Source of the DNA: Pyrinomonadaceae bacterium
GTDB taxonomy: Bacteria > Acidobacteriota > Blastocatellia > Pyrinomonadales > Pyrinomonadaceae
DNA length: 54,441 nucleotides
Direction: 5' to 3'
Assembly (NCBI GenBank): GCA_013811945.1
Contig: JACCUI010000116.1
Location: 1 to 54,441 of the forward strand
Positions 43,611-52,297 of this stretch are shown piece by piece. The position numbers and the translations under genes are program-made. Below the pieces are notes generated by a model, which was given only the letters and a program-made list of their open reading frames with translations, did not search any database and was not told where the DNA came from. The first letter of the stretch is position 1. Every line of letters starts with the position of its first letter.

Positions 43611-43632
43611 CTGTTGGTGGCGCAGCTTTGCC

Positions 43633-43700
43633 GGCGGGCAACGCCCGCCATTAAACGTTTAGAGCGGGGCGTTGCCCCGCGTTGCAGACAGGATGTCTGC
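43633..43700. repeat. Array of three 17-base hairpins upstream of asnB
   Basis: Three units, each with a seven-base stem and a three-base loop, follow one another: ggcgggcaacgcccgcc (43633-43649), gcggggcgttgccccgc (43664-43680) and gcagacaggatgtctgc (43684-43700). They lie between a GT4 stop and the asnB start at 43716, so the last hairpin ends 15 bases before the start codon and could mask the ribosome-binding region. Confidence 0.85.
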
Positions 43701-43715
43701 GCTCCCAGCAAAAGC

Positions 43716-45722
43716 ATGTGCGGCATTTGTGGAGTAATTGATTTTTCTGAATCGCCGGACGCGGCGGCGGTCGTGCGGCGGATGACGCCGACGATGCTGC
43801 ATCGCGGGCCGGACGATGAGGGCTATCTCGACCGCGGACGCATTTCCCTGGGAATGCGTCGTTTGAGCATCATCGACCTGGAGGGCGGGCACCAACCGAT
43901 CTACAACGAAGATGGCTCCGTGGGAGTCGTGCTCAATGGCGAAATCTACAATTTTCGTGAGCTGGGAAAGCGACTCGAGGATCGCGGCCACAGACTCAGC
44001 ACTCGCTCCGATTCTGAAATCGTTGCTCATGCCTACGAAGAGTGGGGGCCGGCCTGCCTTGATCATTTCCAGGGAATGTTTGCGATCGCCATTTATGACC
44101 GCCGACTAGTGAGCAAGGGAGACTCTCCCCGGAAAGAGAACGGTACACTATTCCTGGCGCGTGATCGTTTTGGTATCAAGCCACTGTATTACTACCAGGA
44201 TGAACACCGGCTGCTCTTTGCATCGGAAGTTCGCACTTTGCTGGCCAGTGGAGCAGTGCCGCGCCGCCTTTCCAGATCTGCGCTCCGGAGTTATCTACTG
44301 TTCGGGTCCGTGAGTGAACCAATGACGCTTGTCGAAGGAGTTTTATCCCTTCCCCCCGGGCACACTATGACGCTCCAATTAAGACTTCGAACCCGATTAG
44401 CAGAACCAAGAAGCTATTGGAATATTGCCCGGAACGGAATGTTTAAGTCGGAGAAGGGGAGACACGGAGAAGGGGAGACACGGGGACGCGGAGACGCAGA
44501 GAACGTTGCGAGTAACGGTCATCCGAGCAAGTCTGATTCAGACTCTGCCTCACATCAAGTGCGAGATTTGCTCGAACAGAGCGTGCGGCGGCACCTGATT
44601 GCAGACGTCCCTGTCGGAGTATTCTTGAGCAGTGGAATAGACTCAACGTCGTTGGCTGCGCTCGCAAGTCAAGAAGTCTCTGGTGTGCATACGTTCACGG
44701 TGGCATTTCCGGAAAAGGAGTTCAGCGAAGCGGCCATAGCGCGTCGAACCGCACAGAAGTTTGGCACTACTCACGAGGAGTTAATGCTCACTAGCGACGA
44801 GATGCTCACGCGATTGAGCGAAGCGGTGGGCGCGCTCGACCAGCCAAGCATTGATGGCATTAATACCTATTTCGTGTCTTGGGGGGCGAGACAGGCGGGA
44901 CTGAAAGTTGCGCTTTCCGGACTTGGCGGTGACGAGGTCTTTGGCGGCTACAACACATTTCGCAGGACGCCACAGTATCAGCGCATCGCGTCAATCGGCA
45001 GTCGAGTGCCAGGAGCGTTACGTTCCGCTATGGCTGCGGCCGTGGCAGGAGCAGGCGAGGGCACGACTCACGGCGACGCTGCGCGAAAGATCGCCGCGCT
45101 CTGGAATGATCCTGAAGCTCTCCCACATCCTTATTTCTTCTGTCGAGCGTTGTTCACGCCTCCGCAGGTTGGCGAGCTAATGAAAGGTCCGCAGAGCGCT
45201 GGGAGCGATCACCTCTGGTGGAATTGGCTTGCGGAAGCTGCGGGGCAGTCGAGCAACCTGGATGGTTTTACGGCAGTTTCCTGCATGGAAGCCCGGTCTT
45301 ATCTGGTGAGCACCCTACTGCGGGACACTGATTCAACGAGTATGGCCCACTCGCTGGAAGTGAGAGTGCCGTTTCTCGATCATACGCTGGTCGAATATGT
45401 GATTCAGCTTTCCGAAGCGACGAAACTCCGCAAAGGAACGCCTAAAGCTTTGCTGGTATCGGCACTGGAAGATCTTCTACCTGCGGAGGTCGTCAACCAG
45501 GAAAAACGAGGATTCACTTTTCCCTGGGAGAGTTGGTTGGGCGGCCCGTTACGACAAGACATCGACAAAGGACTCTCTGAGCTGGCGCCGGCTTTGCGTG
45601 AGACAATCAATCCGAAAAAGGCCGCTGGTGTTTGGCAGAGTTATCTGGCAGGACATACGAGCTGGTCACGACCGTGGAGTCTCTATGTGTTGAACGAATG
45701 GACCAGGCGACACTTGGGATAA
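43716..45722 (+). CDS. asnB: Asparagine synthase (glutamine-hydrolysing) type amidotransferase
   Basis: The start must be ATG 43716, because the product then begins MCGICGVIDF with the N-terminal nucleophile Cys2; the frame upstream is repeat DNA. The protein is 668 residues. The glutaminase domain (2-210) has RRLSIIDLEGGHQPIYNEDG and SEIVAHAYEEWG. The synthetase domain has the PP-loop FLSSGIDSTSLAAL, ALSGLGGDEVFGGYNTF and HSLEVRVPFLDHTLVEYV. A hydrophilic insert of about 30-40 residues (from about residue 242) lies just before the synthetase domain and is coded by tandem-repeat DNA. In polysaccharide and lasso-type peptide loci such enzymes amidate a sugar acid or activate a peptide carboxylate; here either is possible, given the PqqD/HprK genes 0.8-2.2 kb downstream. 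Confidence 0.95.
   Translation: MCGICGVIDFSESPDAAAVVRRMTPTMLHRGPDDEGYLDRGRISLGMRRLSIIDLEGGHQPIYNEDGSVGVVLNGEIYNFRELGKRLEDRGHRLSTRSDSEIVAHAYEEWGPACLDHFQGMFAIAIYDRRLVSKGDSPRKENGTLFLARDRFGIKPLYYYQDEHRLLFASEVRTLLASGAVPRRLSRSALRSYLLFGSVSEPMTLVEGVLSLPPGHTMTLQLRLRTRLAEPRSYWNIARNGMFKSEKGRHGEGETRGRGDAENVASNGHPSKSDSDSASHQVRDLLEQSVRRHLIADVPVGVFLSSGIDSTSLAALASQEVSGVHTFTVAFPEKEFSEAAIARRTAQKFGTTHEELMLTSDEMLTRLSEAVGALDQPSIDGINTYFVSWGARQAGLKVALSGLGGDEVFGGYNTFRRTPQYQRIASIGSRVPGALRSAMAAAVAGAGEGTTHGDAARKIAALWNDPEALPHPYFFCRALFTPPQVGELMKGPQSAGSDHLWWNWLAEAAGQSSNLDGFTAVSCMEARSYLVSTLLRDTDSTSMAHSLEVRVPFLDHTLVEYVIQLSEATKLRKGTPKALLVSALEDLLPAEVVNQEKRGFTFPWESWLGGPLRQDIDKGLSELAPALRETINPKKAAGVWQSYLAGHTSWSRPWSLYVLNEWTRRHLG
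44451..44505 (+). repeat. Tandem repeat insert inside asnB
   Basis: The 16-base unit gagaaggggagacacg occurs twice head to tail (44451-44466 and 44467-44482), followed by related gggacgcggagacgcagag words. The frame is kept, although the unit length is not a multiple of three. Confidence 0.85.
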
Positions 45723-45723
45723 G

Positions 45724-45750
45724 AATTTCGGATTTCGGATTGCGGATTGG
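45724..45750. repeat. Intergenic copy of the aatttcggatttcgg repeat
   Basis: Bases gaatttcggatttcggattg follow directly after the asnB stop. A second partial copy lies at 45983-46003. They match the family inserted in wzt. Confidence 0.8.
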
Positions 45751-45799
45751 AGACCCGGAAGTTGCAAAGATACCAAACTGCTGAAGCTGTGGAGGACGC

Positions 45800-46014
45800 A
45801 TGAGAGTCGAAGAGCTGACTTTCGATGAGCTTAAGATGTGGATTAGCTACGCCCTTGAGCAAAAGCTTGAGGAACTTCTTGGTGATCCTGACTACGAGCT
45901 TCAGTAAAGGAGGATGTCAAAAAGAGGTTACGGCTCTCCCATGAACAGACGGCTAGAAGCTCCGCAGGCGTGCCGATTGTTACGATTTCGGATTTCGGAT
46001 TTGAAAGCGACTAG
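45800..46014 (+). pseudogene. Truncated antitoxin-like small gene, frameshifted
   Basis: A good ribosome-binding site (GGAGGA) precedes ATG 45800. The first 35 codons read MRVEELTFDELKMWISYALE and continue to ELLGDPDYELQ with a stop at 45905. The pattern VEEL-x-LxEEL-x-GDPD is that of a small antitoxin-like family that normally continues with LELRPEV-like sequence for about 30 more residues. Such a continuation (VKEDVKKRLRLSHEQTARSS) is present in another frame from about 45904 until repeat DNA begins near 45983. This points to a one-base frameshift. The short 35-residue form may still be made. No toxin gene is next to it. Confidence 0.5.
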
Positions 46015-46504: not shown

Positions 46505-47335
46505 ATGCAGAAAGTTGACCGCCTGGATTGGGCGGCCGGTTTCTCTCTCAAGAGCTATGGTGTCCGGATTGGCATCCGGTCAAATAACCCTGCTTATCTG
46601 GCACGGGTTCACGAGCATCTGCCGCACAACTGGGAAAAGATGTCCTCTCCGATCGTTGATCGCCTGTACTCGATTGTCATCGGTGGCGAGGGAGCGCGGC
46701 CGAACATCCGGCGTTTCAATCTCCTTTACGGCAACCACGTGCGCCTCGCGCGCTCGATCGAGCTAGACGAGGTATTTAATACCCTGGAATCGGATCTCCG
46801 CCTTTTTGTAGCTGAGCTGGCGCGTGGCCGCGTTTTTGTACATGCAGGTGTCGTGGGCTGGGAGGGAAGAGCTGTTGTGGTGCCAGGCCGCAGCTACACC
46901 GGCAAGTCAACGCTAGTGGCCGAGTTGGTGCGAGCTGGAGCCACGTACTATTCCGACGAGTATGCAGTATTCGATTCGCGCGGCCGCGTCCACCCGTTCC
47001 CCGGACCTCTTCAGATTCGTCAGGAAGGCGGTTTCAAACAAACCAAGATTGATGTTGCACAATTGGGTGGTCGTCCTGGTTCGAAGCCTCTTCCTGTTGG
47101 GCTAGTTTTGGTGACGCAGTTTAAGAAGGGTGCAAGATGGAGGCCTCGAAATTTGTCATCAGGCGCAGGAGCCCTGGAGCTGCTTTCCAATACAGTCTCG
47201 GCCCGACGCAGTCCCGCGAGCGCGCTTGATGCATTTGACAATGCGGTAGTGGGCGCTCAGATAGTGAAGGGAGCCCGCGGTGAGGCCCAGGAAATCGTGC
47301 CTTTTATCTTGGAGAGAATTAGCAAAAATAGATGA
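46505..47335 (+). CDS. HprK-related serine kinase/NTPase
   Basis: The 276-residue protein has an N-terminal alpha/beta region (about 1-105) and a P-loop domain with GRSYTGKS (residues 128-135) in VVVPGRSYTGKSTLVAELVR, followed by ATYYSDEYAVFDSRGRVHPF (about 150-170). The arrangement matches the C-terminal half of HPr kinase, and most closely the HprK-related kinases found beside PqqD-domain proteins and nucleotidyltransferases. The usual HPr substrate gene is absent. In lasso peptide clusters HprK homologues phosphorylate the precursor peptide; here the PqqD-knottin protein encoded 98 bases downstream is the obvious candidate partner. The start is ATG 46505; no strong ribosome-binding site is visible. 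Confidence 0.82.
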   Translation: MQKVDRLDWAAGFSLKSYGVRIGIRSNNPAYLARVHEHLPHNWEKMSSPIVDRLYSIVIGGEGARPNIRRFNLLYGNHVRLARSIELDEVFNTLESDLRLFVAELARGRVFVHAGVVGWEGRAVVVPGRSYTGKSTLVAELVRAGATYYSDEYAVFDSRGRVHPFPGPLQIRQEGGFKQTKIDVAQLGGRPGSKPLPVGLVLVTQFKKGARWRPRNLSSGAGALELLSNTVSARRSPASALDAFDNAVVGAQIVKGARGEAQEIVPFILERISKNR

Positions 47336-47433
47336 CCCGTGGATTTGATTCGTGATAGACTCTGCGCGTTTCAACGCCAGTTTCTCTTCATTTCGATTCG
47401 ATTCACATCGGGCTGTAGAAAATCGGAGGCCGT

Positions 47434-47946
47434 ATGAAAACTACCCCCAACCGGACGCCAGCTACTGCCAATGGAGAACCCCGTGCGCGGAAAGACGACT
47501 TGATCGTCAAGGAAATGCCTGATGAGGTTCTGGTTTATGACCTGGTGCGCGACAAAGCGCACTGTTTGAATCGTACGGCGGCCCTGGTCTGGAATTATTG
47601 CGACGGCCGGACCGGCGCTGCGGCAATGACCGGACGTTTAGAGCGAGAATTGAATGTCCCTGTTGATGAACGCGTGGTGTGGTTGGCTTTGAATCAGTTG
47701 AGCAAGAATTATCTGCTGGAAGAACAGATTGTGCCGCCCCCGCTGATGGCTGGAATCAATAGAAGGCAGATGATGCGAGCGCTGGGTGTTGCAGCAGTTG
47801 TCGCAGTTCCCGTCGTTACCTCAATTGTCGCCCCTACGCCGGCGCAGGCACAGTCGTGTCGAGGTCCAGGTGTGCCATGTAATAACGACAATCAATGCTG
47901 CTCACTGAATTGCCTAGGGATTGGGACTAATAGAGTTTGTGCCTAA
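47434..47946 (+). CDS. PqqD-domain protein with internal Tat-like signal and C-terminal six-cysteine knottin-like tail
   Basis: The protein is 170 residues. Residues 20-97 form a PqqD/RRE domain (VLVYDLVRDKAHCLNRTAAL, then VWNYCDG and a helical end WLALNQLSKNYLLEE). After the linker PPPLMAGI comes a twin-arginine signal-like segment: NRRQMMRALG (109-118), a hydrophobic stretch to about residue 133, and the cleavage-like site AQA (137-139). The remaining 31 residues hold Cys142, 149, 155, 156, 160 and 169, spacing C-X6-C-X5-CC-X3-C-X8-C, the pattern of inhibitor-cystine-knot miniproteins. A PqqD domain normally binds RiPP leader peptides. Here the chaperone domain and a possible secreted cargo are one chain. 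GGAGG lies about ten bases before ATG 47434. HprK-like kinase upstream and nucleotidyltransferase downstream suggest a common pathway. Confidence 0.88.
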   Translation: MKTTPNRTPATANGEPRARKDDLIVKEMPDEVLVYDLVRDKAHCLNRTAALVWNYCDGRTGAAAMTGRLERELNVPVDERVVWLALNQLSKNYLLEEQIVPPPLMAGINRRQMMRALGVAAVVAVPVVTSIVAPTPAQAQSCRGPGVPCNNDNQCCSLNCLGIGTNRVCA

Positions 47947-47970: not shown

Positions 47971-48008
47971 AGGTGCTGATTGTCCACAGTCAGCACCTAA
48001 TTTATTTT
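47971..48008 (+). terminator. Intrinsic terminator after the PqqD-knottin gene
   Basis: A nine-base stem aggtgctga / tcagcacct (47971-47979 and 47990-47998) with a ten-base loop is followed by aatttatttt. It is one of the few hairpins in the window with a good T-rich tail. It lies immediately before the nucleotidyltransferase frame, so it should limit read-through to that gene. Confidence 0.8.
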
Positions 48009-49119
48009 GGAGACTGTTTCACCACGCTTAACGTCGGCGCCTTTAACGTTGAGTTCTCGATTGCAACATTCTAGTGGTGGGACTCTCGTGGCTGCCACGC
48101 TTGCGGGTTCCTGGCGTGGACTTTCTTCACCTCTGAACATTACCGAGGCCGAGTTAGATCGCGTAACGCCCCTGCTTTATGCGTCGGGCTCCGCTGCGCT
48201 CGGTTGGTGGCGCGTGCGGCAGACAAATTTGAGTGCTACGCCGTCCGCCGCAGTGCTCCACCAAGCATACCGCCTTCAGGCTCTCCAGTCAGCAATCCAC
48301 GAGAAAAAGATCGAAAAAATCTTCCGCCTACTGCGTCAGGCGTCCGTCGATGCCATTTTGGTGAAAGGGTGGCTGGCAGCAGGACTTTATCCCGACGGAG
48401 CGCTTCGCCCTTATGGCGATATCGATCTTTGCTTCCGGCGGGAACATTTCCAAACTGCAAAAGATATTCTGGCAAGCTCTGAAGCGACAGACTGCTGGGT
48501 TGATCCGCACTCACGATTCTCTGAACTGGAATCTCGCAGCTTTGACGAACTCTTCGCCCGTTCCCGACTGGTGGATTTGGGTGCGGAGAAGATTCGGATT
48601 ATGGGCTCCGAGGATCATCTTGCTTTGCTGGCCATTCATCTATTGAAACATGGAGCATGGCGTCCGCTCTGGCTTTGCGATATCGGAGCCGCAATTGAAT
48701 CACTGCCTGCGGAGTTTGATTGGGATTTGTGCCTGGGCAAGAATAAGACTCGTGCCCTCTGGATCATCTGTGCGATTCATCTGTCGCAGGAGTTACTCGA
48801 TGCAGACATACATCCACTGCCAATGTCGCATAGGGCAAAAGAACTTCCCCGATGGTTGGTTAGCATTGTACTGCGACAATGGGCAGCTCCATTCGCCATT
48901 AATCAGCCGCCGATGAGCCATCCGAAGCCGATGGCCAGTTACTTGAAGACCCCGAGAGGTCTTCTAAAAGGTCTACGCGCACGCTGGCCGAATCCGATCA
49001 TTGCCACTGTTAGTGTTAATGGCGAGTTTAATGGTTTTCCGCGTTTACCTTATCAGCTTGGGAACTGCGCACTGCGTTCAGCAGAGTTTTTCTTCCACCG
49101 GTTAAATACTCTTGGATGA
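48007..49119 (+). CDS. Nucleotidyltransferase-fold protein (uncharacterised NTase, PF14907 type)
   Basis: The frame from TTG 48007 has 370 residues; GTG 48088 is a better start in my view, because TTG 48007 lies in the terminator tail. The core nucleotidyltransferase motif is ILVKGWLAAGLYPDGALRPY followed by GDIDLCF (Asp-X-Asp metal ligands, about residues 138-141), then VDLGAEKIRIMGSEDHLALL and HLLKHGAWRPLWLCDIGAAI, as in the NTP_transf_5 family. Proteins of this family are often encoded with HprK-related kinases and PqqD-domain proteins in polysaccharide or lasso-type loci. It may add a nucleotide to a peptide or protein, but the substrate is unknown. Confidence 0.8.
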   Translation: METVSPRLTSAPLTLSSRLQHSSGGTLVAATLAGSWRGLSSPLNITEAELDRVTPLLYASGSAALGWWRVRQTNLSATPSAAVLHQAYRLQALQSAIHEKKIEKIFRLLRQASVDAILVKGWLAAGLYPDGALRPYGDIDLCFRREHFQTAKDILASSEATDCWVDPHSRFSELESRSFDELFARSRLVDLGAEKIRIMGSEDHLALLAIHLLKHGAWRPLWLCDIGAAIESLPAEFDWDLCLGKNKTRALWIICAIHLSQELLDADIHPLPMSHRAKELPRWLVSIVLRQWAAPFAINQPPMSHPKPMASYLKTPRGLLKGLRARWPNPIIATVSVNGEFNGFPRLPYQLGNCALRSAEFFFHRLNTLG

Positions 49120-50253: not shown

Positions 50254-50344
50254 CGTTAAATAATAGCTCGTGTTGCTTCGAGTGACACGAGGATCGAGCT
50301 CCCCTTTCTTCTAATTCAAATCCGAAATTTGAATCCGACATTCC

Positions 50345-52297
50345 ATGTACATTCTCGGAATCAACGCTTACCACGGCGATGCTGCGGCGGCGATAACCCG
50401 CAATGGCGAGTTAATTGCCGCGGTTGAGGAGGAGCGCTTTAATCGTTGGAAGCATTGCGCAGGCTTTCCAACTGAATCCGTGCGCTACTGCATCAAGGCA
50501 GCGGGAATCCAGGTTGAGGATCTCGAGCATATCGGAATTTCGCGGGATCCTTCCGCACACCTGCACCGGAAAATCAGGTTTGCGGCAATGAGAGCAGCGA
50601 AGCAATTCAGTAGGCAGACGGCAGGAGGCAGACGGCAGGAGGAATGGGAGACGGGACGCGGGGAAGCGGAGACGGAGAACTTCGACATTGCGCAGACTCG
50701 GCGAGCGTTCGGTTTAGAAGCTGACGGCGATGACACTCTGGCTTTCACCGCGGCACCGCGTCCCCGCGACCCGGCCTCCTCGCCGGAAATTGAAGGCAAC
50801 GGCAACGGCCGAGGATTTCTTCGGCAGGTCGCCGATCGCCTCGGAAATGCTGCCAAGGTGCGTGACTTAAGACACGATCTGGCCAAGGCGTTGGGGGTAT
50901 CGAGGAACACACTGCGCGCGCAGTTTCATAACATCGAACATCATCACGCGCATCTGGCAAGTTCGTTTTACGTGTCTCCCTTTGAGCGTGCAGCCTTGCT
51001 TTCCATCGATGGCTTCGGCGATTTCATTTCGACCATGTGGGCGAAAGGAGAAGGGAACTCGATCGAGGTGCTGGGCCAGGTGGAGTATCCCCACTCTGCT
51101 GGCATACTTTACACAGCTACCACGCAATTCCTCGGTTTTCCGCATTATGGCGACGAAGGAAAAGTCATGGGACTCGCACCTTATGGCACGCCACGATACA
51201 TGGAAGAGTTTCGCGACATTATTCGCACCGACGAAGCTGGGCGGTTTCGTTTGAATCTCGATTATTTTCGCCATCAGGCCGAAGGTGTGGACATGACATG
51301 GGACGATGGCTCGCCCGTAATCGGACGAATATTTTCGGATCAGTTTGCGCAAACCTTTGGCCCGCCACGTCAACCCGGAGCACAGCTAACCCAGCGCGAG
51401 CACGACATTGCCTCCAGCTTGCAGCTCCGTCTGGAAGAAGTAGGTTTTCACGTGCTGCGGCACTTGCACCAGCAAACCGGACTCACCGATTTGGGACTCT
51501 CCGGTGGCGTGGCCTACAACTCCGTAATGAATGGCAAAATATTGCTCAACACTCCCTTCCGGCGTGTCTTCGTGCAGCCGGCTGCGGGTGATAGCGGCAC
51601 AGCGCTGGGAGTTTGTTATGAGATCTACAACGGCATCTTGAACCACAAGCGGGGACTCGCGATTGAGGGCGCTTACACTGGACCAGAGTTTACGAACGCC
51701 GAAATAAGAGCTGAGTTAGAGCGATGCGACCTCACATTCGAGAGCTATTCAGACGATGATCTAACAAAGCGTGCGGCCCAGGATATTGCCGACGGACTGG
51801 TGGTTGGTTGGTTTCAAGGTCGCATGGAATTTGGACCGCGGGCGCTGGGCAATCGCTCGATTGTGGTCGATCCACGGCGCGCCGAAATGAAAGACATACT
51901 GAACGACCGTATAAAGAAACGCGAGCCCTTCCGACCGTTTGCTCCGTCAATTTTGGAAGAACATACTGACGAATACTTCGAACAGAACCATCCAGCTCCG
52001 ACCATGCTGATGGTCTATCAAATCAGGCGGGAGCGTCGCTCTGAGATACCGGCGGTAACGCATGTGGATGGCTCAGGCCGTTTGCAGACAGTCTCGCCAC
52101 ATTTGAATCCGCTTTACTATCAGCTTATCTCAGACTTCCATAAGATAACGGGAGTGCCGGTGGTCTTAAATACTTCTTTCAATGAAAATGAGCCGATTGT
52201 CTGCACCCCGCGTCATGCCATTGACTGTTTCCTAAAGACTCGCATAGATGTGCTGTATCTGGGGAATCAGGCTGTCCGGCGGACACCAAACTCGTGA
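50345..52297 (+). CDS. Carbamoyltransferase (NodU/CmcH family) with repeat-derived insert
   Basis: The 650-residue protein starts MYILGINAYHGDAAAAITRN. The ASKHA-type N-terminal domain has IEHHHAHLASSFYVSPF and LLSIDGFGDFISTMW, which bind the metal and carbamoyl-adenylate, followed by GDEGKVMGLAPYGTPRYMEE. The C-terminal YrdC-like part has QGRMEFGPRALGNRSIVVDP and PVVLNTSFNENEPIVCTP. The family carbamoylates hydroxyl groups of sugars, nodulation factors or antibiotics; here a sugar of the polysaccharide is the likely acceptor. Two hydrophilic inserts occur between the N-terminal strands and the HHH motif (about residues 90-160), the first of them coded by tandem-repeat DNA at 50612-50690. Confidence 0.93.
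   Translation: MYILGINAYHGDAAAAITRNGELIAAVEEERFNRWKHCAGFPTESVRYCIKAAGIQVEDLEHIGISRDPSAHLHRKIRFAAMRAAKQFSRQTAGGRRQEEWETGRGEAETENFDIAQTRRAFGLEADGDDTLAFTAAPRPRDPASSPEIEGNGNGRGFLRQVADRLGNAAKVRDLRHDLAKALGVSRNTLRAQFHNIEHHHAHLASSFYVSPFERAALLSIDGFGDFISTMWAKGEGNSIEVLGQVEYPHSAGILYTATTQFLGFPHYGDEGKVMGLAPYGTPRYMEEFRDIIRTDEAGRFRLNLDYFRHQAEGVDMTWDDGSPVIGRIFSDQFAQTFGPPRQPGAQLTQREHDIASSLQLRLEEVGFHVLRHLHQQTGLTDLGLSGGVAYNSVMNGKILLNTPFRRVFVQPAAGDSGTALGVCYEIYNGILNHKRGLAIEGAYTGPEFTNAEIRAELERCDLTFESYSDDDLTKRAAQDIADGLVVGWFQGRMEFGPRALGNRSIVVDPRRAEMKDILNDRIKKREPFRPFAPSILEEHTDEYFEQNHPAPTMLMVYQIRRERRSEIPAVTHVDGSGRLQTVSPHLNPLYYQLISDFHKITGVPVVLNTSFNENEPIVCTPRHAIDCFLKTRIDVLYLGNQAVRRTPNS
50612..50690 (+). repeat. Tandem repeat insert inside the carbamoyltransferase gene
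   Basis: The 14-base unit aggcagacggcagg occurs twice (50612-50625 and 50626-50639), followed by gggagacgggacgcggggaa-type words that resemble the asnB insert. The frame is maintained. Confidence 0.82.

Follow-up and report, generated by a model that had tools for sequence, protein, structure and literature searches.

We consider it rather probable that the product of the gene at positions 47434 to 47946 of the 54,441-nucleotide stretch of DNA analysed here (hereafter the window) is a precursor from which a disulfide-rich cystine-knot peptide is made and exported, and that this precursor carries its own RRE as a built-in leader and is probably tailored in trans on a conserved Ser or Thr residue next to the cleavage site. 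Judged by sequence, it is a member of an apparently undescribed family of fast-evolving, putatively secreted Cys-rich peptides, of which a single genome can have dozens of copies, usually along with only one partner kinase gene. The partner kinase and nucleotidyltransferase, the size of the family and its hypervariability go beyond the initial annotation of this DNA, which had described the precursor.

The Precursor and Its PqqD/RRE Domain

The initial annotation had read a PqqD/RRE domain, an internal twin-arginine signal and a Cys-rich tail in one frame, and translation of the forward strand bears this out with a single protein of 170 residues (P0001).

47425..47429, + strand: SD-like GGAGG 5' of the precursor gene (direct reading)
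47434..47946, + strand: precursor gene, PqqD/RRE domain, RR signal and six-Cys tail (translation, 170 aa)
47491..47718, + strand: N-terminal PqqD/RRE domain (AlphaFold2 pLDDT 93-97; best Foldseek match TbiB1, a lasso B1 protein)
47758..47850, + strand: twin-arginine-type signal, residues 109-139, ending A-Q-A (RR in 99-100 % of 171 aligned homologues)
47851..47943, + strand: six-Cys ICK-type tail, residues 140-170 (Cys pattern, profile matches, tail model)
47854..47856, + strand: codon of Ser141, the proposed acceptor (S/T in 88 % of homologues)

The protein narrowly passes the PqqD model PF05402 (24.4 bits, cut-off 23.4), and in an AlphaFold2 model of the full precursor, built from a 44-row alignment, residues 23-91 adopt a βββααα domain with pLDDT values of 93-97. 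For this N-terminal part, Foldseek ranks TbiB1 (prob 1.00, TMt 0.72-0.76) and another leader-peptide-bound lasso B1 protein first, followed by heterocyclase RREs and PqqD. As the lasso B1 structures are the nearest, the domain is an RRE of the lasso B1 type, and its presence in cis is well supported by the Pfam match, the fold order and the TbiB1 match. PqqD proteins are normally peptide chaperones of about 90-110 aa. The leader peptide bound by an RRE is usually a separate molecule, which speaks against the proposed reading, in which the PqqD domain would itself take over the role of the leader.

The Twin-Arginine-Type Signal

The motif N109-RRQMMRALG-118, the hydrophobic core and the A137-Q-A139 site are all found as the initial annotation had claimed. 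Both arginines are near-invariant at the aligned columns of the 171 homologues, for which the motif was not used as a filter, and are mostly preceded by S, N or T at position -1 and followed by hydrophobic residues at 113/114 and K/R at 115. Within the signal columns, Pro126 and Pro134 are conserved to 98 %, Gly118 to 89 % and Ala139 to 84 %. The full Tat motif (S/T/N/G-RR, two hydrophobic residues, K/R, hydrophobic core, and A-x-A) occurs in 139 of 174 members, and the curated Tat models remain below their cut-offs on P0001 (TIGR01409, 13.6 vs 16.7; PF10518, 14.4 vs 22.7). An RR export signal is thus well supported by its near-invariance, and Tat is favoured over Sec as the presumable route because the RR pair is invariant and accompanied by K/R at 115. 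The presence of TatC in 112 of the 119 genomes of the taxonomic family allows this route; no TatC was detected in the genome of the window itself, the assembly of which is only 67 % complete.

If left uncleaved, the RR-hydrophobic segment could instead act as a type II anchor that displays a cystine-knot ectodomain outside the cell and keeps the RRE inside for docking or sensing. One hydrophobic segment after a folded domain and the positive-inside orientation fit such a membrane-anchored form, and the low confidence of the AlphaFold2 model over the hydrophobic stretch (residues 121-139) would suit a membrane segment. We nevertheless regard an anchor as unlikely, though conceivable, since the conservation of Ala139 in its A-x-A setting and of the two prolines is typical of a cleavable signal, and the invariant RR is more than an anchor requires. 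We infer instead that the signal is cleaved and the tail released as a free peptide.

Partner Enzymes and the Locus

Genes for two putative tailoring enzymes lie on either side of the precursor gene, with a hairpin in between.

46505..47335, + strand: HPr-kinase-like protein (K), 276 aa (TIGR04352, 52.6 bits, below the cut-off of 200)
47971..47998, + strand: terminator-like hairpin, 12 pairs then T-rich, between the peptide gene and N (computed)
48007..49119 (start codon uncertain), + strand: NTP_transf_5 nucleotidyltransferase (N) (PF14907, 96 bits, cut-off 31.2)

K keeps the conserved His113, the P-loop GKST and Asp151, and N keeps the conserved D138-x-D140, so that both enzymes look active. 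The hairpin has the longest stem among such sites, which occur near chance in this region (6 found, 4.4 expected), and it may permit high expression of the peptide and low expression of the enzyme.

In 47 named loci, for which a six-row alignment served as query, K is present in 33 and N in 38 within 10 kb and on the same strand, in many cases with direct adjacency of the peptide gene and the K/N genes. Of 119 genomes, 81 contain both the peptide and the kinase gene and 32 contain neither, the discordant cases numbering 3 in either direction and the kinase-only ones including contig-edge fragments (Fisher p 4e-22, a value that is inflated by genome relatedness and is not a true probability). 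Concordance is complete in the window's genus (both in 6 genomes, neither in 10). Physical proximity is not a prerequisite: G007 and G034 each have one kinase gene, in a locus without a peptide gene, and in G092 and G100 K and N occur without an intervening peptide gene. That the link between peptide and kinase survives such separation argues for a functional relationship.

These distributions also bear on the question of whether K and N are simply part of the neighbouring polysaccharide locus and tied to the peptide by position alone. The window does hold an exopolysaccharide-type cluster with glycosyltransferases, a Wzy-like protein and an amidotransferase, which is what such an explanation would lead one to expect; it is, however, difficult to reconcile with peptide and kinase genes that co-occur even when apart, as in the four genomes named above, and that are present or missing together within one genus. 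We therefore consider a purely positional association quite unlikely and prefer to read K and N as partners of the precursor.

The polysaccharide cluster also contains a NodU/carbamoyltransferase-type gene (window 50345-52297), and short, repeated TTTCGGATTTCGGATT-like intergenic stretches are present at 45720-45760, 45985-46010 and 50310-50340 of the window. In genome G103, a short PqqD protein of 99 aa (L196:5966-6262, 68 bits) is encoded close to the kinase gene.

The Six-Cysteine Tail

Direct reading confirms the tail spacing given in the initial annotation as C142-X6-C149-X5-C155C156-X3-C160-X8-C169, that is, the C-C-CC-C-C framework with knottin spacing. The tail is separately confident in the AlphaFold2 model of the full precursor (pLDDT 90-91) and reaches a pLDDT of 86 when modelled alone (22 rows). 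A Foldseek search with the 33-aa tail returned mostly cystine-knot structures, but the matches are weak (best E 0.07) because the tail is tiny. A profile of 22 ICK-type tails matched 60 PDB chains at E values up to 1, nearly all of them ICK peptides, with a best E of 8.6e-6, such matches resting largely on Cys spacing. The C-C-CC-C-C order is found in 25 of 75 six-Cys tails, compared with a shuffle mean of 6.4 and a maximum of 14, and many tails of the family are not of the ICK type.

Across 163 homologues, cysteine accounts for 15.5 % of tail residues, 1.9 % of the PqqD core and 0.17 % of the signal. The number of tail cysteines ranges from 0 to 20 and is even in 159 of the 163, the four odd tails including one that looks frameshifted, one fragment and one truncated by the limit of the retrieved sequence; the ends of unrelated open reading frames gave 48 even and 37 odd counts. 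Even counts at many tail sizes imply disulfide pairing. The initial annotation had named two refuting conditions, namely tail cysteines that vary among homologues and a tail that packs into the PqqD fold, the latter being a matter on which the full-length model offers the local confidence of the tail given above. The first condition did not refute it, as in 25 close pairs 97 % of the tail cysteines are kept, compared with 56 % of the other tail residues and 89 % of the non-Cys core residues. Substitution ratios of pooled pairs were saturated, and pN/pS of close pairs alone was used; among the most closely related pairs, pN of the tail exceeds that of the core by a factor of roughly 2 to 12. 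On the sequence level, this combination of a conserved leader and a hypervariable product is the pattern of peptide arsenals. A disulfide-rich, cystine-knot-type tail is hence well supported by Cys parity, Cys conservation and the ICK profile matches.

Alternatively, the tail might take up a metal or a cluster through its cysteines while still in the cytoplasm, assisted by the RRE, and then be exported in a folded state via Tat. Tat is indeed known for exporting folded, cofactor-bearing proteins, and the SCxC-type tails outside the ICK group could hold metal. Nonetheless, the even count over 2 to 20 cysteines, the knottin-type spacing and the fast change of non-Cys residues suit disulfides better, and no fixed metal motif was seen in the tails, which renders metal or cofactor binding very improbable in comparison with disulfide formation.

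The most conserved non-Cys residue of the tail is the Ser or Thr at column 141, two residues past the A-x-A site, which is retained in all 50 homologues where residue 142 is not Cys and in 97 of 116 where it is. We predict Ser/Thr141 to be the acceptor of the kinase modification.

Family Distribution and Repertoire

In the window's taxonomic family (Blastocatellia/Pyrinomonadaceae-type Acidobacteriota), 84 of 119 genomes contain relatives of the precursor, as do 42 of 396 genomes drawn evenly from the phylum, other classes included. Among the named matches, Acidobacteriota MAGs, chiefly Blastocatellia/Pyrinomonadaceae, are joined by single contigs that bear the labels Gemmatimonadetes and Abditibacteriaceae and could be mis-binned. 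The assembled family set comprises 174 distinct members, 163 of which have a clear RR segment, and these 163 homologues with the same architecture rule out a chance match or artefact. At least 30 peptide genes each are present in G007 and G034, scattered singly or in small arrays. That P0001 is an ordinary PqqD chaperone for a separate RiPP, for which the usual size of about 90-110 aa would speak, and that its C-terminal extension is meaningless read-on can practically be dismissed, given that the 163 homologues retain the extension together with its RR, A-x-A and even number of cysteines and that most of the PqqD_rel_X-type proteins recovered by the scan of the phylum have no such tail.

The repertoire includes a number of unusual arrangements. 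One family member (L017:1405-1968) has two tandem ICK-like six-Cys units in a single tail. The proteins of L138 and L139 in G132 pair PqqD with an RR-like signal, and at least in L139 this leader-signal module carries a quite different tail of long, Cys-free Gly/Asp/Thr repeats. In G007 (L080:4104-5900), two peptide genes are interleaved with two 2OG-Fe(II) oxygenase genes (PF13640), and these oxygenases are possible candidates for further tailoring enzymes. A Peptidase_C25 (gingipain-type) protein adjoins a family member in G360 (L146:3017-7387). The second PqqD protein of the window's own genome (G000:C34, L002:1423-2346) lies beside an ABC ATPase fragment and has a long C-terminal part that by eye resembles a transglutaminase-type lasso B protein.

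Proposed Maturation

The N-terminal PqqD/RRE domain would remain in the cytoplasm and dock the precursor onto the HPr-kinase-like and NTP_transf_5 enzymes. Before or during export, the conserved Ser/Thr at the second position past the cleavage site is probably phosphorylated by the kinase; in analogy to the lasso K/N enzymes, the nucleotidyltransferase may then build further on this phosphate. Directed by the RR signal, the C-terminal tail would next pass the membrane, with Tat as the most likely route, whereupon the tail would be cut after A-Q-A and fold with three disulfides. A single kinase could in this manner serve many dispersed precursors.

Comparison with Known Systems

The layout is reminiscent of the prochlorosins, in which many dispersed precursors with a conserved leader and a variable Cys-rich core share one trans-acting enzyme; here, however, the leader is a folded RRE and no lanthipeptide synthetase is involved. 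In borosins, the core is fused in cis to the modifying enzyme and thus likewise sits on a folded biosynthetic domain, whereas the domain of the present family is a recognition element and not an enzyme. Animal and plant ICK/knottin peptides have the six-Cys C-C-CC-C-C framework and the profile match in common with the tail, but the latter is bacterial, RRE-led and putatively RR-exported, and the resemblance is probably convergent.

The closest enzymatic precedent is found among lasso peptides, where an HPr kinase homologue and a nucleotidyltransferase are reported to phosphoglycosylate the product, as in pseudomycoidin (PMC8498205). The B1/K/N set of paeninodin and pseudomycoidin comprises the same three protein types, namely a B1-fold RRE, an HprK-like kinase and a nucleotidyltransferase (PMC8498205), the lasso N being likened by nucleotidyltransferase type and the PF14907 match referring to N of the present locus. 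In contrast to the lasso clusters, the RRE is here fused to the peptide, export would rely on an RR signal, the tail is cystine-rich, and the kinase can be distant from its presumed substrates; moreover, the kinases known from lasso peptides act on a Ser at the C-terminus, whereas the tails lack a conserved one. Among the window genes scanned (a subset of the open reading frames), no lasso cyclase/B2 module was identified. The Asn-synthetase-like gene at 43614-45722 was rejected as evidence of a lasso cluster (211 vs 525 for NF033535, best fit asn_synth_AEB), and it is not among the gene groups common to related loci.

In the HPr-rel-A system (TIGR04352 HprK_rel_A, TIGR04353 PqqD_rel_X), an HprK-like kinase likewise stands beside a PqqD protein, but the TIGR04353 members seen above cut-off have about 90-110 aa and no tail, and TIGR04353 has no match in the window's genome (G000). 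Assignment to an ordinary PqqD of PQQ or HPr-rel-A was rejected on the respective models (kinase, 52.6 vs 200). SynChlorMet systems (ScmC, ScmD) have an ScmC-like kinase, and the PqqD models that 41 of 44 members match include ScmD; these PqqD matches are, however, weak, and the kinase scores only 20.2 bits for TIGR04249, far under the cut-off of 125. Next to the precursor gene, no gene for a radical SAM protein was identified.

Two surveys of RREs deal with discrete domains and with fusions to larger proteins, most of them enzymes, and no mention was found there of a precursor that has an RRE fused to it (PMC7470986, PMC12710340). Searches of the open-licence literature for PqqD with twin-arginine and Cys-rich features, or for ICK peptides in Acidobacteria, found none. 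We know of no RiPP class in which the RRE is carried inside the precursor. Every part of the system is already known; the combination and its scale are new as far as the literature found allows us to say.

Significance

It is possible, though we advance it tentatively, that the family constitutes a new class of ribosomal peptides with the RRE inside the precursor, in which one trans-acting kinase/nucleotidyltransferase set tailors dozens of RR-exported, hypervariable Cys-rich peptides of a genome-wide repertoire on a conserved Ser/Thr, providing a disulfide library with a putative activity in competition or signalling. Such genes would escape mining based on small open reading frames or clusters, as they exceed the usual length of precursor genes and can be dispersed away from the enzyme. 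The findings furthermore raise the questions of how Tat handles a signal positioned after a folded domain and of which role HprK-like kinases play outside lasso clusters. Acidobacteriota belong to the most common and most poorly understood bacteria of soils, and, if the proposed reading is true, they would encode a large and fast-diversifying stock of secreted disulfide-rich miniproteins.
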